DNA of 64,000 bases. It comes from a virus. The stretch lies in the IMG/VR virus record IMGVR_UViG_3300009068_000028, positions 1 to 64,000 of that record. One strand, given 5' to 3'. The notes beneath the pieces are model-generated. The model worked only from the letters and a program-made list of their open reading frames with translations, was not told the origin of the DNA and did no database searches. Shown here piece by piece: positions 1,805 through 21,244 of the stretch (the first letter of the stretch is position 1; every line of letters begins with the position of its first letter). Position numbers and translations under genes: made by a program.

Positions 1805-2587
1805 TTATTTCTTTTTAGTTTTAGGTTTTGGTTTTTCTTCTGGAACATCTTCAACTACCGATGCAGTTAGCATCATTGTCGAAGCAAAGCTTCCGCTAAA
1901 GATATACTCACCTGCGTGTACAATCTTGACCCAAGGGGCAGCAAATACTTCTCCACCAATTTCACGGTACTTACGGCAGAAGTGATAGTCTTCTGAAAGC
2001 AAGATTCCGTCTTCAGTAATGCTGGTAGCAAAGTATTCTGTAACCATCTGAGAAGCATCAAATGCACCAGTAGATGTGTTTAGCATATACTTTGAGCAAT
2101 GTGGCTTCATTTTTTCAAATACTTCTTTTTTAATAAAAAGCATTCCAGTACCAACTTCGGTTACAGGAACTGGCTCATTCATTTTAAATGTTGTTTCTCC
2201 AGGTAGCATATTCATAGCAAAGAATCCAGAATACTGTTCCAGGTTTTCTTTACCTTCTACTGCTGCACGACCAACATTTTCCCAGTTGATATTTTTCATG
2301 GGGTAGATAGCACCAATAACATCTTTGCCAGATTCAATCATAGAAATAACATCCATGTGGTCAAACCCTTCATCAGCATCAATGAATAGTAGTGCATCAG
2401 CACCAGATTTCTCAAACTCGTGTACTAGATTATTCCTAGCACGAGTAATGAGACTTTCGTTGTATATCTTAGAGAATGATACCTGATACCCCTTTTTTGC
2501 AAGCTCAAAGGTTAAAGCCATCAGACCATCTAGATATACACCCTTACAATTTCCCCCATACATGGGGGTAGCAATGTGTAAATGCAT
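1805..2587 (-). CDS. Glycosyltransferase-like protein (GT-A fold), minus strand
   Basis: This 260-residue protein begins MHLHIATPMYGG and has a nucleotide-sugar-binding type motif LLFIDADEGF near residue 85, resembling the DxD site of GT-A glycosyltransferases; later RARNNLVHEF and LSEDYHFCRK fit the same family in phages. The tail is basic (KPKTKKK). I chose the ATG at 2587 because GGAGAG lies 4 bases upstream and a TGGTATAAT promoter sits just before it; a longer in-frame ATG at 2617 lies inside that -10 element and cannot be in the mRNA. It is the only minus-strand gene among tail genes and has its own promoter and terminator, so it behaves as an inserted cargo (moron) gene. It may glycosylate the adhesins or the host surface. 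Confidence 0.65.
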   Translation of the reverse strand: MHLHIATPMYGGNCKGVYLDGLMALTFELAKKGYQVSFSKIYNESLITRARNNLVHEFEKSGADALLFIDADEGFDHMDVISMIESGKDVIGAIYPMKNINWENVGRAAVEGKENLEQYSGFFAMNMLPGETTFKMNEPVPVTEVGTGMLFIKKEVFEKMKPHCSKYMLNTSTGAFDASQMVTEYFATSITEDGILLSEDYHFCRKYREIGGEVFAAPWVKIVHAGEYIFSGSFASTMMLTASVVEDVPEEKPKPKTKKK

Positions 2588-2615
2588 TGTCTCTCCATCT
2601 GTTAGTTGTATAAAC

Positions 2616-2624
2616 ATTATACCA
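2616..2624 (-). promoter_or_regulatory. Extended -10 promoter for the minus-strand glycosyltransferase
   Basis: On the minus strand TGGTATAAT forms an extended -10. TTTACC lies 17 bases upstream as a weak -35. The expected start of transcription lies just upstream of the ribosome site GGAGAG, which fixes the gene start at 2587. Confidence 0.7.
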
Positions 2625-2660
2625 GATACTTTGCGTGTGGTAAACTTAATTAGAACAATT

Positions 2661-5600
2661 ATGGCTCAAAATCTTTATGCTACCAAGGTGTTTTCAAGAC
2701 ACCCCTCTGCGTTGTGGGCTTTAGACGAAAATTTAACTACGCCAGTCATTACTTCAACTCCAGCAAGCATACCCCTGACTAGCACTTATTCTTCAGAGGC
2801 AAAGTCTTATGGAGATTCTCAATTTTCTGCATACTACATTGGATCTTCATCTAATAGTTTAGGTGCAACAAATTACGGTGTACCGCTTGTTTATGGAGCA
2901 GACAGCATTACATCAATTGCTCCAGTAACAGGGGATAACCCTTCCCTTATAGTTCCAGGATTTGGATTATTTAATCAAGACGGTAAAGCAAAATCAATAA
3001 CCCTAGAAGCATGGGTAAGAATAGAAGCAAGATCTGTTCGTATTCCTAAAAAAATTATTGGACCAATATCTTCGACAGATGGTCTATATGTAAATGGTCC
3101 ATTTTTAACTTTAAAGGTTGAAGATTACGTTTCATCACACTTTGTTGGTGAGTGGGGTAGACCAATGCTTATTCACATTGGAATCTCTAACAATAGTGTT
3201 TTTCTTATGGTTAACGGAGAACAAGTTATAACAATTCTTTTAGACACAATGTCAATCGATTTTCCAACAAAATACAACGGCACATCTCAAGATCAAGACT
3301 GGATAGGGTTTTATGCATATGCCGATGTCTCTCCAATAAATGTAGACTGTGTATCAATTTTTCCATACCGTGTAGATGTTGAAGAAGCAAAGACAAGATT
3401 TATTTTTGGACAGTCTGTTGACTCTCCAGAAGTTGCTGGTACAGGAGAATCAACTCTTCCAGTAGTTATGGACTATTCTTTTTCTAAATATGCTAATAAC
3501 TACTCATATCCAGATAAGTATGATTGGCAGAACGGCATTCTTGATAATATATCATCTATAAATTCTGCACTCTCTGTTCCAAACTACTCTCTCCCCACTT
3601 TAATATTTGAAGAAACAAGAGACATTATGGACTGGTATGATGCACAAGAAGAAAATAATACTGAGACCATTGCTGCAGACTTGGCATCTGGAGAATTAAT
3701 TGATAACTCCATCTTTTTTGAAATGAATCCAACAAACTGGGGAATAAAGACATATATATTATTTCCTAAATTAAACATGATAGATGATACATTAGATGCA
3801 CTATATGCTGCATTAAAGTATACAACTCTGCCAACAGCAGTTGAAACTATTTTTAAAATATACAATTCTTCAAACGAATACTTTAGATGTTACTACAAGC
3901 CAACTGGATCAACTGTAGAGTATGAGTTTGTTTCAAACGGAATAACAACAACATTTGACGGACAGAACGTTACAGCAAATACATTGTTTGGAGTAGGAAT
4001 AAACATACCAACCCTTTTATCTAATGCTTTAGCAACAAATCAAATGAAATCTTTCTTTGCAAACAAGTCAAGTCTTAAACTTTATTTCTGTGGAGAGCGT
4101 GGCTTTGTTAATGGATACTCTGGTAAAGTTTATAAAATTGGATTCTCAAATGCAAAAAATTATGACCTAATTAAAACCTCATTTACTAGCGGTTTAGTTT
4201 CAAGTCAGTTGTTGTTGCTAGATAATTATGCAAACTATACTTTGTTTGGAGTTTATAATCTTGGATCATTTGCACTGGATATTGCTACATTCTCGTATTG
4301 GGAAGATTATATTCCTCTTACATTACTAGCAAAAAATTCTAATAGTGCAAATATAAACTACTCTCTTGACTTTATTCAATTTAATGTTGATTACCCAGCC
4401 TCTGAGTCAATAGTTTCTTCAAATGTTTCTACCGTAAATGAAATGGTAAAAACATATGCCTATTTTTCAGAACTAACAAAGCCATCATTAACAACATCAG
4501 ATTTATCAAGAACCTTATTTAATTTACCATCAACAAAAATAGTTTCTCCAGATGGATCATGGGCTACAAAAATTTACGAGGTAGTAGACGGTTCAATAAT
4601 TTATATTCCAAGCGTAACCGACTTTACAGAACTTGGATTAAACATTAAATTTGAGATGAAGGTTCCAGGTATTTTTAGAAATCCAGTAAAGATTAGAAAT
4701 ATGCAACTATCTTCACAATCATTAAACAATGATTCAAAAACACTTATTGGTTCAAAACTAGGAAGAGACCTATATCCTTATACAAAACCTTCAACAACAT
4801 TTGTTTATCAGGATTCAATAAATCCTTTTGTAACATATAAAGGAAAAACTCCATATCTTTATCTAAACAAAACAAGTGGTATTCAACTATTAGGATCAAC
4901 ATTTGACGGAACTCGTGGAATAGAAATATTAATTAATGAGTCAGCAAAAAGATTCTTTCTTCTTGATATTTTGCAATTTGGTTTTTATTACGACAAAACA
5001 TTTTCTTCGGGAGCACAGGAAATTTTAAGAATTGGTAGCGAAACCGAAGACAAGTTTTCTGTAGTAGTTGACGGAATTGGAGATAACACAAAAGGAATAG
5101 TTTATGTAAAAAACTTAAGTACTAACACGCCTTATTTAGATTTAGATCTGTATGTAAATGGCTTGGAAGATTCAACTGCATCTGGAGTAGTCACTACAGA
5201 CGGTAACGTTTTTTATAGAAACTGGAACTTTGTATCAATTAAGTTTAACCCAGCATTAAATTTTGAAGGTATTTCTGGTGCAATTAGAATAACTGGTCCA
5301 TTCCTTATTAATAATCTTTCACACTATCAAATTTCAGAAGAAGAGTACGCAAATAAAGTTAACTCAACAAACTGGGGTACTGTTCTAGATAGAGACCCAA
5401 TTGTTGCAGGTACAAATACATGGACACAAACTGTATCAACAACATACGAACCACTAAATGCAACCTGGTTTGATGTTTATTCAGATTCAATTGCCCCTGG
5501 TCTTGGAAAAAATCCTTCGGATGTTTACCGTGCATACTTTGGGGCTAGTATAAAATTACCAATTCAAACTAACATTCCACTAAACTTGTCAAAATATAGA

Positions 5601-5750
5601 TATGCTGCGTACCTAAATGTTGAAGGAACGTCTAGAAAAAATGTTACGACCATAGAAGTTGATGGAACATTGAAAACTGAAGAGGTTGTTAACAAAAATA
5701 CATACTTTCCATCTATTTTTATACCAGTTACAGGACAAAAAGTTAAGTAA
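2661..5750 (+). CDS. Large tail/appendage protein with LamG-like domain
   Basis: This 1029-residue protein starts at ATG 2661 (MAQNLYATKVFSRHPSALW); the frame stays open upstream but only through the divergent promoter region. Between about residues 105 and 240 the text ITLEAWVRIE followed by HIGISNNSVFLMVNG is the classic pattern of a concanavalin A-like lectin/LamG domain. A second related jelly-roll region seems to lie near residues 740-890 (GIEILINE, LYVNGLEDS, NWNFVSIKFNP). Such proteins are minor tail or appendage proteins of long-tailed phages and can bind sugars. It is divergent from the glycosyltransferase and is followed by the head genes. Sugar binding is inferred from the fold. 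Confidence 0.6.
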   Translation: MAQNLYATKVFSRHPSALWALDENLTTPVITSTPASIPLTSTYSSEAKSYGDSQFSAYYIGSSSNSLGATNYGVPLVYGADSITSIAPVTGDNPSLIVPGFGLFNQDGKAKSITLEAWVRIEARSVRIPKKIIGPISSTDGLYVNGPFLTLKVEDYVSSHFVGEWGRPMLIHIGISNNSVFLMVNGEQVITILLDTMSIDFPTKYNGTSQDQDWIGFYAYADVSPINVDCVSIFPYRVDVEEAKTRFIFGQSVDSPEVAGTGESTLPVVMDYSFSKYANNYSYPDKYDWQNGILDNISSINSALSVPNYSLPTLIFEETRDIMDWYDAQEENNTETIAADLASGELIDNSIFFEMNPTNWGIKTYILFPKLNMIDDTLDALYAALKYTTLPTAVETIFKIYNSSNEYFRCYYKPTGSTVEYEFVSNGITTTFDGQNVTANTLFGVGINIPTLLSNALATNQMKSFFANKSSLKLYFCGERGFVNGYSGKVYKIGFSNAKNYDLIKTSFTSGLVSSQLLLLDNYANYTLFGVYNLGSFALDIATFSYWEDYIPLTLLAKNSNSANINYSLDFIQFNVDYPASESIVSSNVSTVNEMVKTYAYFSELTKPSLTTSDLSRTLFNLPSTKIVSPDGSWATKIYEVVDGSIIYIPSVTDFTELGLNIKFEMKVPGIFRNPVKIRNMQLSSQSLNNDSKTLIGSKLGRDLYPYTKPSTTFVYQDSINPFVTYKGKTPYLYLNKTSGIQLLGSTFDGTRGIEILINESAKRFFLLDILQFGFYYDKTFSSGAQEILRIGSETEDKFSVVVDGIGDNTKGIVYVKNLSTNTPYLDLDLYVNGLEDSTASGVVTTDGNVFYRNWNFVSIKFNPALNFEGISGAIRITGPFLINNLSHYQISEEEYANKVNSTNWGTVLDRDPIVAGTNTWTQTVSTTYEPLNATWFDVYSDSIAPGLGKNPSDVYRAYFGASIKLPIQTNIPLNLSKYRYAAYLNVEGTSRKNVTTIEVDGTLKTEEVVNKNTYFPSIFIPVTGQKVK

Positions 5751-5768: not shown

Positions 5769-6152
5769 ATGGAACAAGAAAAACCAGACCCAATTGAGGA
5801 AGCTCTTAGTAAAGCAAAGTTAACAGTAGTTAAAGAAGAGTACTCTGACTTTGGTACATATATCTGGGTAAAAGCAAATGGCAAGCCATTTACCGACGGA
5901 GACAATAATGTTTTGTCTATTGAGTCAATGAAGAATGATCGTGAGCGTGTAAAGAAACTTATGGATGCCGCCGCATATTATGGAGAAGCAGAAGGTCAGG
6001 CTATCTTCTATCCAAATACACGACAGATTTCTGACGAAACTCACTCAGAGCAAATTGATCGTATGAAGCAAGGATTAATTCCAAACATGAATGACCTTGG
6101 TGCAGTTATTGCTGCAAAACAAACTTTAAAGTTGTATGGAGATGAAGGCTAA
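5769..6152 (+). CDS. Unknown protein upstream of the portal gene
   Basis: This 127-residue protein has an acidic N-terminus and a mixed helical sequence (RERVKKLMDAAAYYG, HSEQIDRMKQGL). I do not recognise a domain. It overlaps the portal start by one base, so it belongs to the head operon, and it is the first gene after a leaderless promoter. A head or packaging accessory role is possible from position only. Confidence 0.55.
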   Translation: MEQEKPDPIEEALSKAKLTVVKEEYSDFGTYIWVKANGKPFTDGDNNVLSIESMKNDRERVKKLMDAAAYYGEAEGQAIFYPNTRQISDETHSEQIDRMKQGLIPNMNDLGAVIAAKQTLKLYGDEG

Positions 6153-13438: not shown

Positions 13439-14149
13439 ATGCCCTATTCACGTGGTACAAGTGCTAACATCATCGTTGGTGCAGCAGCACTTTTCGCATA
13501 TCAAGATGGTCCAATCGGTCAAAACACAAGTGGTGGTATTACTAACACTCAAGCTGAAATCGATTTGCCCAACTTCCAAACTAACATTTCGTACAAGGAA
13601 ACTCTTGCAAATGCAACAAATAGCGTTGACTTCCGTAACGTTGGTTACACCATGAACGGTCTTGAAATCGTTTTTCAGCCTGACTTCGGTGAGGTACAGG
13701 TTGACCAGGTTCTTGACGTTGCTAAGCTTTACAAGCAGGGAATGCAGGTTAATCTTAACACAGCATTTGCTGAAGCAACACTAGATAACTTGCTCTTTGC
13801 AATTGCAGGACAGTCAAGCGACCTTTCAGCTACATACACCAGTGTTACATCACAGAGTGCATTCGGAACACCAACTTACGACGGTGACCGAGTTCTAAAT
13901 CTTGGTGCAGGAAACATTGGCGAATGTCCAGTTGAGCGTGGTCTCGTTGCAGTTGGTCCAGGTACAGGAGACTGTGCAGCTGGTTCATCAATTGAGCGAA
14001 TCTACGTTGCATTCCGTGCTCTTTCAATTGAAAGTGTTACAGTATCAGCAAAGCGTGACGAAGCTACAATGTTTGAAGTCTCATTTAGACTTCTTCCTAA
14101 CGACAATGCGTCTTATGGAAAGATTGTAGACCGCACACTCGCATCATAA
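13439..14149 (+). CDS. Major tail tube protein
   Basis: This 236-residue, mostly beta protein has its own promoter, long leader, strong ribosome site and strong terminator, the signature of an abundant structural protein. It lies between connector and tail chaperone genes, the usual slot of the tail tube. Features include a Ser/Thr/Gly-rich centre and a C-terminal ALSIESVTVSAKRDEATMFEVSFRLLP with alternating strand pattern typical of tube proteins. No sheath gene accompanies it, which supports a non-contractile tail. Confidence 0.75.
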   Translation: MPYSRGTSANIIVGAAALFAYQDGPIGQNTSGGITNTQAEIDLPNFQTNISYKETLANATNSVDFRNVGYTMNGLEIVFQPDFGEVQVDQVLDVAKLYKQGMQVNLNTAFAEATLDNLLFAIAGQSSDLSATYTSVTSQSAFGTPTYDGDRVLNLGAGNIGECPVERGLVAVGPGTGDCAAGSSIERIYVAFRALSIESVTVSAKRDEATMFEVSFRLLPNDNASYGKIVDRTLAS

Positions 14150-14164
14150 TTTAATATAATCAGG

Positions 14165-14200
14165 ACTGCTCAGAGTTTCGGCTCTGGGCAGTTTTGTTTT
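14165..14200 (+). terminator. Strong intrinsic terminator after tail tube gene
   Basis: ACTGCTCAGAG (14165-14175) pairs over 11 bases with CTCTGGGCAGT (14182-14192), one G-U, around a TTTCGG loop, and TTTGTTTTT follows. Confidence 0.9.
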
Positions 14201-14209
14201 TGGTACAAT
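14201..14209 (+). promoter_or_regulatory. Extended -10 promoter, leaderless, for first tail chaperone
   Basis: TGGTACAAT ends 6 bases before the ATG at 14216; no ribosome site fits between. The promoter abuts the upstream terminator. Confidence 0.65.
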
Positions 14210-14215
14210 AGATGT

Positions 14216-14905
14216 ATGGCAACAGAAATTTATGAAACAGGAACTACTACACTAGTAGACGGAACAGAGATATATTTAACACCGCTAAAGATTAAATACC
14301 TTAGAGAATTTATGAAAGAGTTTGAAAATGTTAAACTTGCAAAAGATGATGCAGAAGCAATCTCAGCATTAGCACAATGTGCGAGGGTATGTATGAAACA
14401 ATTCTATCCATCTATAAAAACAATAGAAGACTTAGAAGACAACCTTAACCTTCCAGCTATCTATAAAGTATTAGACATTGGAGCTGGAATTAAAATTGAC
14501 GGCGACGATGAAGAAGAACCAGTAAAAGATCAGGCAGTAGACAGTGGATCTACCTGGGAGACTCTTGATCTAGCAACACTAGAAGCAGAAGTATTTCTTT
14601 TAGGAATATGGAAAGATTTTGAAGAGCTTGAGTCATCAATATCTATGCCAGAACTAACATCAATACTTAACGTAAAAAGAGATTTAGATTACCAGGAAAA
14701 AAAGTTTATGGCTGGAATCCAGGGGGTAGACCTTGATAAAGAGAGTGGTAGCCAAGATCTATGGGAGCAGAAGAAAGCCAAGTTCTTTAGTGGCGGAGCA
14801 ACCAGTAATTCAAATGACGTAGTAGCCCTACAAGGAGCAAATGCTGCACAAGCTGGATTTGGAATAGGTATGGGATTAGGCTATGAAAAACTAGTCGAAA
14901 ACTAA
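14216..14905 (+). CDS. Tail assembly chaperone, long form (G-T like)
   Basis: This 229-residue protein has an N-terminal chaperone domain (residues 1-97: LVDGTEIYLTPLKIKYLREFMKEFE and LEDNLNLPAIYKVLDIGAG) that is clearly paralogous to the next gene. It continues through an acidic linker into a T-like domain with VFLLGIWKDFEELESSISMPELTSIL and LDYQEKKFMAGIQGVDLD, typical of the extended tail chaperone of actinophages. Normally the long form arises by frameshifting from the short one; here it is encoded in one frame. It should bind the tape measure during tail assembly and is absent from the virion in known cases. Confidence 0.8.
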   Translation: MATEIYETGTTTLVDGTEIYLTPLKIKYLREFMKEFENVKLAKDDAEAISALAQCARVCMKQFYPSIKTIEDLEDNLNLPAIYKVLDIGAGIKIDGDDEEEPVKDQAVDSGSTWETLDLATLEAEVFLLGIWKDFEELESSISMPELTSILNVKRDLDYQEKKFMAGIQGVDLDKESGSQDLWEQKKAKFFSGGATSNSNDVVALQGANAAQAGFGIGMGLGYEKLVEN

Positions 14906-14915
14906 ACTTCTTCTG

Positions 14916-14924
14916 TGATATAAT
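14916..14924 (+). promoter_or_regulatory. Extended -10 promoter for second tail chaperone
   Basis: TGATATAAT precedes AAGGAGG (14939-14945) and the ATG at 14951, so the short chaperone has its own promoter and a near-perfect ribosome site. Confidence 0.65.
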
Positions 14925-14950
14925 TTAATAAGCCTAACAAGGAGGAAACA

Positions 14951-15268
14951 ATGGCAACAACAATTAATGAAGCTACACAGCTCACACTTATGGACGGAAC
15001 AGTACTTAATGTTCGTCCACTTAAGATCTCACTACTTCGTGACTTTATGAAGGAGTTTGAGGGTATTGCTAAGGTAGCAGATGATAACGCAAAGTCAATG
15101 GATATACTTATGAAGTGTGTTCAAATTGCAATGAAGCAGTATAGTCCAGAACTAGCAGCAGATGTAGCCGCTCTTGAGGACAATATTGATCTACCAACCG
15201 TTTATAAGGTGGTAGAAGCAGCATCTGGAATTAACCTTTCAGATACTGTAGCTGGTCTTATGGGCTAG
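14951..15268 (+). CDS. Tail assembly chaperone, short form (G-like), paralogue
   Basis: This 105-residue protein aligns along its whole length with the first part of the upstream gene: LMDGTVLNVRPLKISLLRDFMKEFE versus LVDGTEIYLTPLKIKYLREFMKEFE, and LEDNIDLPTVYKVVEAASG versus LEDNLNLPAIYKVLDIGAG. It ends where the T-like part would begin. It thus looks like the G-type short chaperone made as a separate gene. The tape measure gene starts 25 bases downstream. The strong ribosome site suggests it is made in excess over the long form, as the unshifted product is in other phages. Confidence 0.8.
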   Translation: MATTINEATQLTLMDGTVLNVRPLKISLLRDFMKEFEGIAKVADDNAKSMDILMKCVQIAMKQYSPELAADVAALEDNIDLPTVYKVVEAASGINLSDTVAGLMG

Positions 15269-15292: not shown

Positions 15293-18200
15293 ATGGCTGA
15301 AGATGCAAATGCTAATATACGCATAGATATTGACACTACCGCTGCTACTGCAGCACTTAAAGCACTACAAGGTCAAATCGCAAGATTTCACACAGAGATG
15401 GCTCGTGGTGGAGCAGTAGCTGGTCAAAACGCTTCCAAACTACAGCAAGACCTAATAAACTCTATTAATGCTGGTGGTCAGTTCCAAGCTGGAATGACTA
15501 AGGTTCAGTCAACCACCGAAGCATTTACTACTGCCCTTGAGAAAAACAAACTTTCGATGGGGCAGTATTTTAGATACGCTGGGGCATCAACAAAAACATT
15601 CGGACGATTCTTCCGTGGCGAATTTGAAACAATTACAAAGGTAGCTACCGAAAGAGTCAAAGATCTTCAGACTCAATATATCTCAATGGGTCGTGATGCC
15701 AACGGAGCACTACAATCAATCAAGGTTAGACCACTAACTCTTGATATGAATGACCTTGCAACACAAACAATGATTACTGCACAGAAGCAGCAATTATATA
15801 ATCAATTGCTTAAGCAAGGGTCTACTAATCTTCTAAACTTTGGTAAGAATACTCAGTGGGCTGGTCGTCAGCTTATGGTTGGTTTTACCCTTCCCCTCAC
15901 ATTATTTGCTAGTTCAGCTGCCAGATCTTTTATGGAAATTGAAAAGCAGGTAATTAGAATTCGTCGTGTTTATGGAGACTTCTCTACAACAGTTGCAGAA
16001 ACCGACCAGATGATTGATTCAATCAAAACTCTTGCAGGAGAGTATACCAAGTACGGTGTTGCAGTTTCAGACACCCTAGGACTTGCGGCTGAAGCGGCAG
16101 CTGCTGGTAAGTCAGGTCAAGAGCTTTTAGCTCAAATATCTCAAGCTACTCGTCTAGCAGTTCTTGGTAACGTAGAACAAACCCAGGCTCTTGAAACAAC
16201 CATGTCTGTTACTAACGCTTTTGGTGTTGCTACTGAAGATCTTGCCAATAAAATTGACTTCCTTAACGCAGTAGAAAACCAATCTGTTACATCGATTGAA
16301 GACCTTACCATTGCTATTCCCAAGGCTGGACCTGTTGTTCAACAGCTTGGTGGAGACGTAGAGGACTTGGCATTCTTCCTTACAGCAATGAAGGAAGGTG
16401 GAATTAATGCTTCTGAAGGTGCTAACGCACTCAAGTCTGGTCTTGCTGCACTCATTAATCCAACTGGAAAAGCAAAAGAAATGCTTCAAGGATTTGGAAT
16501 TAACATTGAAAAAATTGTTAACTCAAACAAGGGAGACATTAAAGGACTAGTGCTTGATTTTGCTTCCGCACTTGATACACTTAACCCACTAGATCGTGCT
16601 CGTGCAATTGAGCAACTATTTGGTAAGTTCCAATTCTCACGTCTATCTACACTTTTCCAAAACGTCATTGGCGAGGGTACACAAGCAAGCCGTGTTCTTG
16701 AGCTAACAAAAGCAACTACACAAGAACTTGCAATTTTATCCCAACGAGAACTTAAAAAGGTAGAAGAGACAACTACCTATAAATTTGAAAAAGCTTTTGC
16801 AGATTTCCAAGCAGCTTTAGCACCTGTTGGAGAACAGTTCCTAAAAGCCATTACGCCAGTTATTGAATTTGGAACAAAACTTCTTAATCAGTTTAATAGC
16901 ATGGGTGATGGTGCAAAGAGTTTTGCTGTTATTCTGACTACCGTTGTGGCAGGTATTGGTCCTGTCTTGCTTATGACTGTTGGTCTTGTTGCTAACGGTG
17001 TTGCCAACCTTATCAAAATGTTCCAGGCACTTGGAACTATATTTAAGAAATCTGGGGCAGATACAACGACTCTCGGTCTACAAACAGACTATATGACTCA
17101 GCAACAAATTGAAGCAGCAGCAGTAGCAGCATCACTTAATCAGTCACACAGCAAACTTTCACAAACTTTTAGCGTAGAGGCTGCAGCATTAAATAACCTA
17201 ACGCTTGCTTATCAAAAAGCAGTTACTGCACAACGTGGATTTGCAATGCCTGGAGGTAGAGTTGCTGGATCAGCCACAAAGCCAAAAGGTTTTGCTAGTG
17301 GTGTAGTTAGCGTTCCTGGTCCGAAGGGTAAGGGTGATACAGTCCCTGCAATGCTATCACCAGGAGAAGCAGTTATTCCTGCTGACATGGCTAAGAAGTA
17401 TGGCGGTCTTATTCAGGGAATGGTTTTTGACAACATTCCTGGATACTCACAATCTAATATTAAAAAAGATGTTTCTATGTTTGGTGGACCACAAAGACTT
17501 CTTGCTCCATATACTGTTGGTGCTCGTGGAAACACTGCTGGTGGCTTTGGTGTAGATAGAACAGGAATTTCAGCACCAGACTCAATTGCAGAACTTGCAA
17601 TGTCTATGGTTGCAGCAACACTTACTGAGTCTGGTACTAGAATTTCAAACGGCGTAGTCGATTCTGTAGTTGGTCCAATTTCTTCTGCAGCAGAAGAAAT
17701 ATCTATATTACTACAAACTACCGCAGAAGAAATGGGTGACAATGCTACACATATCTCACAAGTAGTAAAAGCAAAACGAGAAGAAATAGATACAATTCTT
17801 AAAAGTAAGTCTGCACTACTTCCTTCAGATCAACAAGGAGCATTTGTTTCTGGATCCCAAAGACTCCTAGATCCAACACTAGAAGATGTTAGAACTGGAG
17901 GATATGCAAGAGTACCTGCAATTAGAGTTAATCCAGATACTGGAGTACCCACTAAAAAGGGTGCTTCTTGGTATACTGCACTAAAGGGTAAGGCACAATC
18001 ATTTAAAGCTAAATTAGCTACACTTAGAAGTAACCCAAATTTTGCAGGTCGTTTAATTGGATCTGCAGGAACACAGGCACACTTAGCACCAGAAAATCTT
18101 TCAATGTTAGGTGGAATGTCTCCAATGGGTGGTGCAGCTATGGGCTTATCGCCAGAATTACAGCAACCAGCTAGACAAAAATTATTAAATACAGTTAGAC

Positions 18201-21200
18201 TATATTTTACAAAATTGGGGCAAGAAGTTCCTAAAGAAATTGAAGCTGCAGTATTGGGTGGTGCTAGAGCGATCACTGCAACAGCATCGCCATCACAAGA
18301 AATGCATAATCTTGGAGTAGATATTGGTCAAGGAGCAATTAATGGGCTTGAGTCTAAAGTAGACGATGCAGCAAGAGCTGGAGAAAGTCTTGGACAAGCT
18401 GCTGCAAGTGGTACACAGGCTGGAGCAAGAGGACAACGAGGAAATAGAAGAGTTCAGACTGGAGTAGTCGGTGCAGGAGGATTCCCTGTAAGAACAACCC
18501 CAGAAGGATCTTCAATTATTATTGGTGATACAGGAAGATTTATACAAGAAGAAGAAAAGCCAGGTAAAAAACCGCTAACCCCATCTCAACAAGCTGCAAG
18601 AGATAAGATGATCCGTCGTCGTGCCATGAATGTAAAGATGCATTCTATGGGTGGACGAATTGCTGCTGGAGTTAAGGGTATGGGCGGTATGGGTGCAGGT
18701 ATGGGGCTTGCTATGGCTGGTGGAGCAGTAGGCATGATACCTGGTCTTCAAGAACTTGGAATGGCTATATCCCTGATTGGTCCACTTTTTATGATGATGA
18801 AGCCAGCAACTGTTGGTGTTATTGCAGCTTTAGGTTTACTAGCTTATGGAATTTATAAAACAATAGAGGCAGGAGAAGAGCAGCGTAAACAAGCATTAGC
18901 CCTTGGAAATTCTTTTGCTATGGGGTCAAAGGCATTACAGTCTATGTCTGAGGATATGGGAACAGTAAGTCTTAGTCAAAAACGTCAGGCAGATACAAAT
19001 GAATTACTTACAAGTACAACAGAAAAACAAATTTCTGCTGGAGAGCAATACTTAACAGAAACAGATAGCGGAAAGGCTCTTGTAGATGAAATAAAAACGT
19101 TACAGTCTAATAATATGTCTACTCAAGAAATTGGAGAACTTCTTGGAAATAAAATTTCTTATGCTGTTTCTCAAAATGTAATTACACAGCAACAAGGTGA
19201 AGGAATAATTGCTGCACTTGGAGTTATTTCTGGAAATCTTGGAGTAAGTACAATAGCTTCCAGCACATTAGAAAATACACAAAACCTTACACCAGGATTG
19301 GCTGCTAGTGGAGCTGCAAAAACAGCTTTTAATGCTGCTAAGAAATCAGACAGTTCTCTAACACAGCTTAGTGGTTCAGTATCTGCACTGTCAGTTGCTA
19401 CTGGTGGAGAAGACATAATTAACTCAAGATATGATTCATTAATTAAAGAATTAAAACTTCAAAAAGAGAAAGCAAAAACAAAAGAAGAAGAGCTTCTTTT
19501 AGAAGGAAAAATTGGAGATTTAGAGTCACAAAGAATAACTGATCTAAAAGATCAAAGAGAACTTCAAAAAGAAATTAAAACTTATATAGAAACAAAAGCA
19601 TTTGCCTTAACGCGAGGCGGAGCTTTTAATGCAGCACCCTATATATCTATGATGAAAGAAATTTTTGGAGAGACTAGCGACGAGTATAAAGCCGCATTGA
19701 GTCTTATGACAGATGAAAATAACAAAGCATTTGGTAGAGAATTTTTAGTTAATATCGGAACAAGTCTTGCAACTAAAGAGCTAAATCCAGGAGCTTTAGA
19801 AACACTACTATCATATGCCAAAGAAAACAAAAATTTTGTTGCAGCATATAACCTATCAGTTACAACTTCTGGCGATATTGAAACACTTGATACTCTTGGA
19901 AAACTTCAAGCATTAGACGCAACATCAGATCAAGTAACAGTTGCCTTAAACTTAATAAATTCTGGAAAATCTGCAGAAGATGTAACTGGAGCTTATCAAG
20001 ATCTTCTTGGTGCTAAGGCTGGAGGTATTGGTGTCGGCGTTGATATTGACGAATCCGCAATTAGAAAATATTTAAATGATCTAAATGCAATAAAAGAAGC
20101 AACACCAAAAGATGGAAAGTTTACAGTTCAATTTCTTGCAGATTACGTCGGAGGAGAAGAGGCTGCAAAAGCAATTTTAGATAGCGAAACTTTTCAGAAA
20201 CTTCCTAAAAAGAAAAAGGCAGAATATATTGCAACCTATAAAGCTTTTCTTACAGGAAGTATTGATAAAGGATCAACTGCATATACTGCCTGGAAAACAT
20301 TAATGAACAAAACTGGTGAAGATACTAGTGATACAGCATTTGTTCGATGGACCCTAAGTAAAATTGAAGGTGCTGGAGAAGGCGGCGGTAGTGGTCCAGG
20401 TCCTACCCCTACTCCCGATCCTCCTGTTGGGGGCGGTGGAAGCCCTGCCGATACTACTACAGAAGATTCAGTAATGGCAAGACTTCAAAAAAGATTAGCT
20501 AAACAAAATGCATTATTAAATGTTATTTCTCTTAAAGAAGCTAAAATTAATAAAAGATTTGATGAACGTAAAAAAGCCCTTGAAGAAATTGCAAAGCTTA
20601 ATGGCAAAATTGCAGAACAACAAAAAGGTCAGCTAGACGTTGCGGATGCGTTAACACGTGGAGACATTGCTTCCGCTGCACGAGCGGTACAAGCAGAAAG
20701 AGTCCGTGCTGCTGCCCTTGCTCAAGAACAACAAATGCTTTCTCTTGAACGACAAAGACAAGCAGAACTTGCAAACGTTATGTTTAAAGGAAAAACAAGA
20801 GAAGAAGTAGAAGCAAAAATTGCTAGATTAAATATGAAAATTGCAAAACGTGAATACAGAACTGCTGCTAGTGGAGGTATGATAAGAGGATACGCTAGTG
20901 GAGGTATGATGAATGGATACTCTGGTGGAGGAATGATGAAAAGATATTCTGTTGGTGGTAAAGTTGTTTCATATTTTGCCGATGGTGGAAGTCCTTTAGG
21001 TTCAGATACCGTTCCTGCCATGCTTACTCCTGGAGAGTTTGTTATTAAACGACCTGCCGTTCAAGATTTCGGGGTAAAGAATCTACAAGCAATCAATAGT
21101 GGCAGTAATCCATCTTCAGGCGTGTATAATTATAGTATCAGCGTAAACGTTAGCACAGAGGCAAACCCAGATCAGATTGCACGAGCAGTAGCACAAAACG

Positions 21201-21244
21201 TAAAGCGTACAGAATCTTACAGAATAAGGGGTAACAGGCTATAA
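15293..21244 (+). CDS. Tail tape measure protein
   Basis: This 1983-residue protein sets tail length and helps DNA ejection. Residues 180-420 hold the TP901-type core (NTQWAGRQLMVGFTLPLTLF, GKSGQELLAQISQATRLAVL, LTAMKEGGINASEGANAL). Hydrophobic stretches lie near residues 540-580 and 1125-1190. A KGDTVPAMLSPGEAVIPADM motif near residue 680 recurs near the C-terminus as GSDTVPAMLTPGEFVIKRP. Just before the second copy are four GGM/GGK-type repeats (ASGGMIRGY, ASGGMMNGY). At the usual 1.5 angstrom per residue the tail would be about 300 nm. A Pro/Gly-rich hinge lies near residue 1700. Arginine codon choice moves from CGT towards AGA along the gene. Confidence 0.92.
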   Translation: MAEDANANIRIDIDTTAATAALKALQGQIARFHTEMARGGAVAGQNASKLQQDLINSINAGGQFQAGMTKVQSTTEAFTTALEKNKLSMGQYFRYAGASTKTFGRFFRGEFETITKVATERVKDLQTQYISMGRDANGALQSIKVRPLTLDMNDLATQTMITAQKQQLYNQLLKQGSTNLLNFGKNTQWAGRQLMVGFTLPLTLFASSAARSFMEIEKQVIRIRRVYGDFSTTVAETDQMIDSIKTLAGEYTKYGVAVSDTLGLAAEAAAAGKSGQELLAQISQATRLAVLGNVEQTQALETTMSVTNAFGVATEDLANKIDFLNAVENQSVTSIEDLTIAIPKAGPVVQQLGGDVEDLAFFLTAMKEGGINASEGANALKSGLAALINPTGKAKEMLQGFGINIEKIVNSNKGDIKGLVLDFASALDTLNPLDRARAIEQLFGKFQFSRLSTLFQNVIGEGTQASRVLELTKATTQELAILSQRELKKVEETTTYKFEKAFADFQAALAPVGEQFLKAITPVIEFGTKLLNQFNSMGDGAKSFAVILTTVVAGIGPVLLMTVGLVANGVANLIKMFQALGTIFKKSGADTTTLGLQTDYMTQQQIEAAAVAASLNQSHSKLSQTFSVEAAALNNLTLAYQKAVTAQRGFAMPGGRVAGSATKPKGFASGVVSVPGPKGKGDTVPAMLSPGEAVIPADMAKKYGGLIQGMVFDNIPGYSQSNIKKDVSMFGGPQRLLAPYTVGARGNTAGGFGVDRTGISAPDSIAELAMSMVAATLTESGTRISNGVVDSVVGPISSAAEEISILLQTTAEEMGDNATHISQVVKAKREEIDTILKSKSALLPSDQQGAFVSGSQRLLDPTLEDVRTGGYARVPAIRVNPDTGVPTKKGASWYTALKGKAQSFKAKLATLRSNPNFAGRLIGSAGTQAHLAPENLSMLGGMSPMGGAAMGLSPELQQPARQKLLNTVRLYFTKLGQEVPKEIEAAVLGGARAITATASPSQEMHNLGVDIGQGAINGLESKVDDAARAGESLGQAAASGTQAGARGQRGNRRVQTGVVGAGGFPVRTTPEGSSIIIGDTGRFIQEEEKPGKKPLTPSQQAARDKMIRRRAMNVKMHSMGGRIAAGVKGMGGMGAGMGLAMAGGAVGMIPGLQELGMAISLIGPLFMMMKPATVGVIAALGLLAYGIYKTIEAGEEQRKQALALGNSFAMGSKALQSMSEDMGTVSLSQKRQADTNELLTSTTEKQISAGEQYLTETDSGKALVDEIKTLQSNNMSTQEIGELLGNKISYAVSQNVITQQQGEGIIAALGVISGNLGVSTIASSTLENTQNLTPGLAASGAAKTAFNAAKKSDSSLTQLSGSVSALSVATGGEDIINSRYDSLIKELKLQKEKAKTKEEELLLEGKIGDLESQRITDLKDQRELQKEIKTYIETKAFALTRGGAFNAAPYISMMKEIFGETSDEYKAALSLMTDENNKAFGREFLVNIGTSLATKELNPGALETLLSYAKENKNFVAAYNLSVTTSGDIETLDTLGKLQALDATSDQVTVALNLINSGKSAEDVTGAYQDLLGAKAGGIGVGVDIDESAIRKYLNDLNAIKEATPKDGKFTVQFLADYVGGEEAAKAILDSETFQKLPKKKKAEYIATYKAFLTGSIDKGSTAYTAWKTLMNKTGEDTSDTAFVRWTLSKIEGAGEGGGSGPGPTPTPDPPVGGGGSPADTTTEDSVMARLQKRLAKQNALLNVISLKEAKINKRFDERKKALEEIAKLNGKIAEQQKGQLDVADALTRGDIASAARAVQAERVRAAALAQEQQMLSLERQRQAELANVMFKGKTREEVEAKIARLNMKIAKREYRTAASGGMIRGYASGGMMNGYSGGGMMKRYSVGGKVVSYFADGGSPLGSDTVPAMLTPGEFVIKRPAVQDFGVKNLQAINSGSNPSSGVYNYSISVNVSTEANPDQIARAVAQNVKRTESYRIRGNRL

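Follow-up and report, generated by a model that had tools for sequence, protein, structure and literature searches.

Short and Long Tail Assembly Chaperones Encoded by Two Genes in a Siphovirus Clade with Frameshifting Sister Lineages

Introduction

How does a long-tailed phage come by a short (G) and a long (GT) tail assembly chaperone if its locus carries two genes and no evident slip site? Most long-tailed phages have kept the frameshift in their tail chaperones, and the available part of one account likewise describes the G/GT slip as conserved and gives a ratio of 30:1 for lambda (PMC5009743). The locus that raised this question lies in the window, by which we mean the whole stretch of DNA analyzed, 64,000 of the 91,679 bases of IMG/VR virus record IMGVR_UViG_3300009068_000028.

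Results

The Chaperone Locus and Its Two Proteins

The genes for the major tail protein, a long chaperone, a short chaperone and the tape measure protein follow one another 5' to 3' in the window, with these features:

13439..14149, + strand: major tail protein gene, the upstream neighbor; phrog_2175 (Ig domain), E 3.3e-31; weak match to phrog_885, major tail protein, E 0.035
14161..14196, + strand: predicted intrinsic terminator hairpin in the gap between the major tail and long chaperone genes; 16-pair stem, -24.4 kcal/mol, z -6.66
14201..14209, + strand: extended -10 TGGTACAAT, predicted leaderless promoter of the long gene; +1 predicted at the A of ATG 14216
14216..14905, + strand: long tail assembly chaperone gene (GT-like), 229 aa, single frame; phrog_10504 over residues 1-99, phrog_10474 over residues 131-177
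14216..14500, + strand: N-terminal, G-like domain of the long protein; 45% identity with the short protein, same secondary-structure order in separate models
14555..14902, + strand: C-terminal, T-like domain of the long protein; match to the -1 frame T region of Streptomyces phages and of IMG/VR locus L160
14916..14924, + strand: extended -10 TGATATAAT for the short gene, with a leader predicted at ~20 nt
14940..14945, + strand: Shine-Dalgarno (SD) sequence AGGAGG of the short gene; -11.2 kcal/mol
14951..15268, + strand: short tail assembly chaperone gene (G-like), 105 aa; phrog_10504, E 1.4e-16; weak match to phrog_1932, tail assembly chaperone, E 0.009
15293..21244, + strand: tape measure protein gene, the downstream neighbor; phrog_10030, tail length tape measure protein, E 1.8e-97

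The original prediction held that the long form is one uninterrupted frame and that the second gene repeats only its G-like part, and both statements were borne out. The frame from 14216 to 14905 is open throughout, and residues 1-96 of the short protein aligned to residues 1-94 of the long protein with 45% identity (E 6e-28), a relationship also recovered by profile-profile comparison (99.9% probability, E 1.2e-36). Structure prediction, which had been proposed as a check alongside alignment, was consistent with homologous domains. The order of elements was identical between the separately built AlphaFold2 models, namely E9-12, E18-21, H26-40, H45-63, H70-76 and H79-90 in the long protein and E9-12, E18-21, H26-41, H46-64, H72-78 and H81-92 in the short protein, whose model was of moderate quality (pLDDT 67.8) and had an extra four-residue helix at 66-69. 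Both genes are under purifying selection (dN/dS 0.025-0.157, three relatives compared).

A fold search of BFVD produced matches to "Tail assembly chaperone" (E 1.6e-3) and to N15 GT (E 0.037), and a fold search of the PDB gave nothing below E 1.5. The matches from a solved-structure search were considered to be chance (one designed protein, E 1, and many helical chains of unrelated mammalian proteins, E 0.28 or higher), as was a match to Rhodococcus phage GuyFagieri, which was antisense. In addition, the short gene has a short open -1 extension into the tape measure start, which we attribute to the overlap with the tape measure gene.

Relatives of the Locus

The nearest phage isolates were Streptomyces phages, which made up 127 of the 130 records at E 0.01 and whose best matches had ~44% identity over G and T; their assignment to the Stanwilliamsviridae comes from four records (Targaryen, Karp, Stanimal and Wakanda). 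These phages share the gene order of the window, with a gene annotated as the major tail protein at the upstream position, and differ in having a single G gene that stops ahead of T, with T in the -1 frame after CCCAAAT or CCCGGAA; the tape measure gene follows, and there is no second G. In the GenBank records of L161, L162, L163 and L164, all Streptomyces phages, G and T are given as two CDS and the joining -1 frameshift is unannotated. L160, which was matched by the long-protein query, likewise has G and T in different frames and is without a second G.

The IMG/VR set was widened with the G of L160, the G of Karp (L162), the G of L211 and alignment A1 as queries, and at least 472 loci were gathered, which are a sample and not a census. 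After 14 of the 472 that were cut by contig ends had been left out, 458 complete loci remained. Among those listed, 235 had a fused G-T gene followed by a separate G (pair loci) and 223 had G with T in the -1 frame (frameshift loci), and none combined a frameshift with a second G. The single-gene frameshift relatives for which a survey had been suggested were thus found, all 223 of them without a second G. Grouping the complete loci by shared 11-mers gave 228 clusters, 139 pair and 89 frameshift (164 and 129 when grouped by exact sequence). A tape-measure-size ORF came next downstream in every cluster with room for one among the loci listed (129/129 pair, 78/78 frameshift). Relative to the long gene, the short gene occupied all three frames (93/81/61 of the 235 pair loci listed), which argues that the short gene starts on its own. 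No isolates of the pair clade were found in the phage collection searched.

Slip Sites

All 89 frameshift clusters had a slippery heptamer in the right frame, located at codons 95-107 and at codon 98 in 74 of them among the loci listed. The heptamers were CCCAAAC (44 clusters), GGGAAAC (30), CCCAAAT (12), CCCGGAA (2) and GGGAAAT (1); CCCGGAA, the type of Targaryen and Stanimal, fits the X XXY YYZ rule less well. In the same scan, GGGAAAN, CCCAAAN and CCCGGAA were absent from codons 80-125 of the long gene in all 139 pair clusters listed. A hidden frameshift in the long gene was also searched for and not found. The original proposal of a duplicated gene in place of frameshifting was supported by the single frame of the long gene and by the distribution of the heptamer.

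Start Signals and Terminators

A leaderless promoter had been proposed for the long gene. In the window, TGGTACAAT lies 3' of the strong terminator hairpin and ends six bases before ATG 14216, which has no SD. Six bases from the hexamer to the ATG is the established sigma-70-type spacing for a transcript that starts at the A of the ATG, and on this basis transcription would be expected to begin with the A of ATG 14216. For the short gene, an extended -10 of its own and a near-perfect ribosome site had been proposed, and these are TGATATAAT and AGGAGG. Consensus scans of this stretch alone found 5 promoters versus 4.6 in shuffles and 1 terminator versus 1.3, so that the case for promoters and terminator rests on their conservation in relatives.

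Promoters were counted in the pair clusters with enough upstream sequence, 2 of the 139 long genes being dropped. Among the loci listed, 132 of 137 pair clusters had TGNTANNNT at 4-9 nt from the start of the long gene on its 5' side, and none had it at 18-46 nt. The positions were reversed for the short gene (0 at 4-9 nt, 139/139 at 18-46 nt) and for the G gene of the aquatic frameshift clusters (0 and 79/79, respectively). The exceptions among the long genes were 5 of 137 without the motif and 1 of 137 with an SD. The leaderless range was widened to 4-9 nt after inspection of the data and admits leaders of 0-3 nt; a narrower count at 4-7 nt gave 71/113 with the TG extension and 81 without it. 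Shuffle means in the first, smaller set were 2.2/113 (leaderless, long) and 5.1/114 (leadered, short). An SD below -5 kcal/mol preceded 1/137 long, 139/139 short and 78/79 frameshift genes among the loci listed. Terminator-like hairpins within 90 nt upstream were identified for 81/112 long genes (1 in one shuffle), 0/114 short genes and 19/25 frameshift genes.

These clusters share descent and are not independent counts. The -10 spacing has been kept while the long proteins diverged to ~42% identity from that of the window, which indicates that it was maintained despite sequence change. The counts agreed with what had been claimed for both genes. By these counts, the leader that belonged to the old G gene is now found at the short gene and has been lost from the long one.

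An extended -10 at 4-9 nt, with a weak SD or none, also precedes the window starts at 5769, 29924, 50303 and 51329, and leaderless expression is probably used elsewhere in the same phage. In a separate study (available part of PMC4351075), leaderless promoters are mentioned elsewhere in the genome concerned.

Codon Usage

Codon adaptation was scored with the major tail genes from these loci as the reference, on the assumption that they are highly expressed. Mean adaptation over 101 pair loci was 0.638 for the short gene, 0.509 for the G part and 0.529 for the T part of the long gene, 0.571 for the tape measure gene and 0.687 for the major tail gene, and the short gene exceeded the long G part in 97 of the 101. 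The values for 24 frameshift loci were 0.661 for G and 0.522 for T. Thus, the G part of the long gene has drifted until its codon usage resembles that of a stretch with poor expression, with the short gene keeping the pattern of an abundant protein. Codon usage is independent of the start signals and points in the same direction, and the two kinds of evidence suggest that there is more short than long protein.

Evolutionary History

We relied on careful trees, as the quick G and T trees were poor searches (constrained trees reached higher likelihoods); to save time and avoid long branches, the careful G tree was built without 16 of the 49 pairs and without 8 of the 30 frameshift rows. In the tape measure tree rooted on the Streptomyces phages, frameshift lineages branched at several depths and at the base, and the pair lineage was one clade (100/99) with one nested frameshift group, L211 and L218. 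Two changes were counted on this tree, and the 5-95% range of the bootstrap trees gave the same number. With an earlier tape measure tree, monophyly of the pair had been rejected (AU p 0.00015). L207, L211 and L218 have a tape measure gene that falls inside the pair clade and a chaperone locus of the CCCAAAC frameshift type. Their T regions group with frameshift lineages of the CCCAAAC type (96/88), and their G is not part of the short clade, so the likely event is a recombination in which a frameshift locus replaced the pair.

In the careful G tree the long G domains were one clade (100/94) and the short G were one clade (99/91), so the copies have been inherited apart, and there was no sign of gene conversion between them in this tree. 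A wider short-G tree also had the short genes as one derived clade (100/98). Grouping of long and short G together was not rejected (AU p 0.49), and long G may join the tree at more than one point. The T tree mixed pair and frameshift rows, with pair monophyly still not rejected (p 0.44), and the mixing of classes in older T trees was counted as lack of signal or exchange. Taken together, the trees indicate that frameshifting was ancestral, that the pair arose once and that there was one later replacement by a frameshift locus.

Discussion

The explanation that we favor, with a probability of roughly 0.85, is that the short (G) and long (GT) chaperones of a siphovirus are made from two genes, with initiation replacing the slip. 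The frameshift relatives carry a single G gene whose -1 slippery heptamer leads into T. In the pair clade G and T are fused in frame, the slip site is absent and a second, free-standing G gene lies downstream. Conservation places the long gene behind a terminator and an extended -10 of its own, positioned for an mRNA start at or within ~3 nt of its ATG, with no SD; the short gene has a separate extended -10, a strong SD and a leader of ~20 nt. Both transcripts would then serve the short gene, with its strong ribosome site, and the long gene would be translated from the upstream transcript only, without a ribosome site, with the presumed result that short exceeds long and initiation does what slipping does in the relatives. 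By analogy with lambda, the tape measure protein may be coated by many short and few long copies, and major tail subunits may be recruited through the T part. In its comparative part this interpretation of the pair is well supported by sequence; that the promoter and ribosome-site signals set the short:long ratio is what we infer. We also think it fairly probable that frameshifting was abandoned once and the ratio rebuilt, the rare long form being driven by a leaderless promoter and the abundant short form by a leadered one with a strong SD, and that the two solutions are exchangeable.

An alternative would be that a hidden frameshift at the G-T junction still yields the short G and that the downstream gene is a specialized paralogue with another job. 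A -1 or +1 shift near the junction in the window would soon meet a stop and give a G-sized product, and other X XXY YYZ heptamers, mostly A/T-rich, occur between codon 80 and T in 14 of 99 pair clusters. However, a GGGAAAN, CCCAAAN or CCCGGAA heptamer was present in 0/139 pair and 89/89 frameshift clusters in the same scan of the loci listed, and it is the short gene and not the long one that has kept the codon usage, SD and leader of the frameshift G genes, and we consider a hidden frameshift very improbable. A different objection is that the ratio is not set by these promoters, both genes being read mainly from one late transcript, with the leaderless promoter a minor or timing signal. The leaderless-type promoters at four other genes of the window would suit this arrangement, as would the failure of the stretch-only consensus scans to rise above chance, but the long gene has a terminator upstream, both in the window and in 81/112 relatives, the -10 spacing is kept in 132/137 clusters across the divergence of the long proteins, and the SD contrast would favor the short form regardless. 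We regard a single main transcript as unlikely.

It is also conceivable that the pair is ancestral and the frameshift relatives derived, as one Streptomyces-rooted tree puts long G outside short plus frameshift G (94/93) and as a frameshift group is nested inside the pair clade of the tape measure tree. With wider sampling, however, frameshift lineages were at successive depths below the pair clade in the tape measure and short-G trees, and the short genes of the latter were a single derived clade. The T of the nested group, placed among the CCCAAAC lineages, and its G, placed outside the short clade, fit replacement; moreover, the early position of long G is that expected of long-branch attraction, and a grouping of long with short G was not rejected. 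We give little credence to an ancestral pair.

If, as we propose, frameshifting was replaced by a gene pair and the two solutions are exchangeable, the one lineage inside the pair clade that regained a frameshift locus from other phages would constitute a natural swap experiment, and a lineage without the slip beside frameshifting sisters would make it testable whether the slip matters beyond the ratio. For annotation, a second G-like gene before the tape measure gene can be a short chaperone.

The pair shares with the lambda-type G/GT system its position between the major tail and tape measure genes and its two forms with a common N-terminal domain, to which the long form adds a T-like part. 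In the lambda type these forms come from a -1 frameshift, whereas here each form has a gene, and that of the short form carries a promoter and a ribosome site of its own. Short and long chaperone gene pairs have already been reported in T4-like phages, which the original prediction did not mention. The available part of PMC10885494, citing Vladimirov, Gautam and Davidson 2022, states that a short gene and a long fusion gene replace frameshifting in some T4-like phages, and the same work is cited for poly-T slip signals in T4-like chaperone genes in the available part of PMC12846349. As in our locus, those phages have a short gene and, with no frameshift, a long gene in which the short part is joined to the downstream part. 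Gp26 and gp51, which we take to be the T4 short/long pair meant in the cited work, share one family (phrog_150, Pfam T4_baseplate) and differ from the present pair in being oppositely oriented in T4. The window proteins had no detectable homology to gp26 or gp51 (hhalign probability 0.8 and 3.1), and only 4 of 39 members matched phrog_150, at E 0.002 for the best, so we treat the T4 case as a parallel and not as a demonstrated relative.

The tail assembly chaperone (TAC) of Rhodococcus phage Francesca had a weak match to the T region (E 7e-6) and is annotated as a joined (frameshifted) gene. No recognizable chaperone is described for Gordonia cluster DJ in the available part of PMC12859696. 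A search of the literature by titles and abstract openings, with subscription papers mostly outside its scope, found no siphovirus chaperone pair of this kind. What is new here is a siphovirus clade with frameshifting sister lineages and a conserved leaderless/leadered split. As for leaderless starts, leaderless mRNAs are common in mycobacteria, and in one study (PMC7148126) their translation was roughly on a par with that of a leadered control, or lower under an alternative model, so leaderless alone does not imply weak. A similar idea comes from yeast, where translational errors led to adaptation via gene duplication according to the available part of PMC4526572.

Other Features of the Window

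A 1062-aa ORF (2562-5750), located 5' of the structural genes, had neither an SD nor a -10 at its listed start. A genome_contigs search for a host gave 66 pattern matches with no relative among them. The window is AT-rich, with 33-44% GC per 2 kb, and its kin are actinophages.
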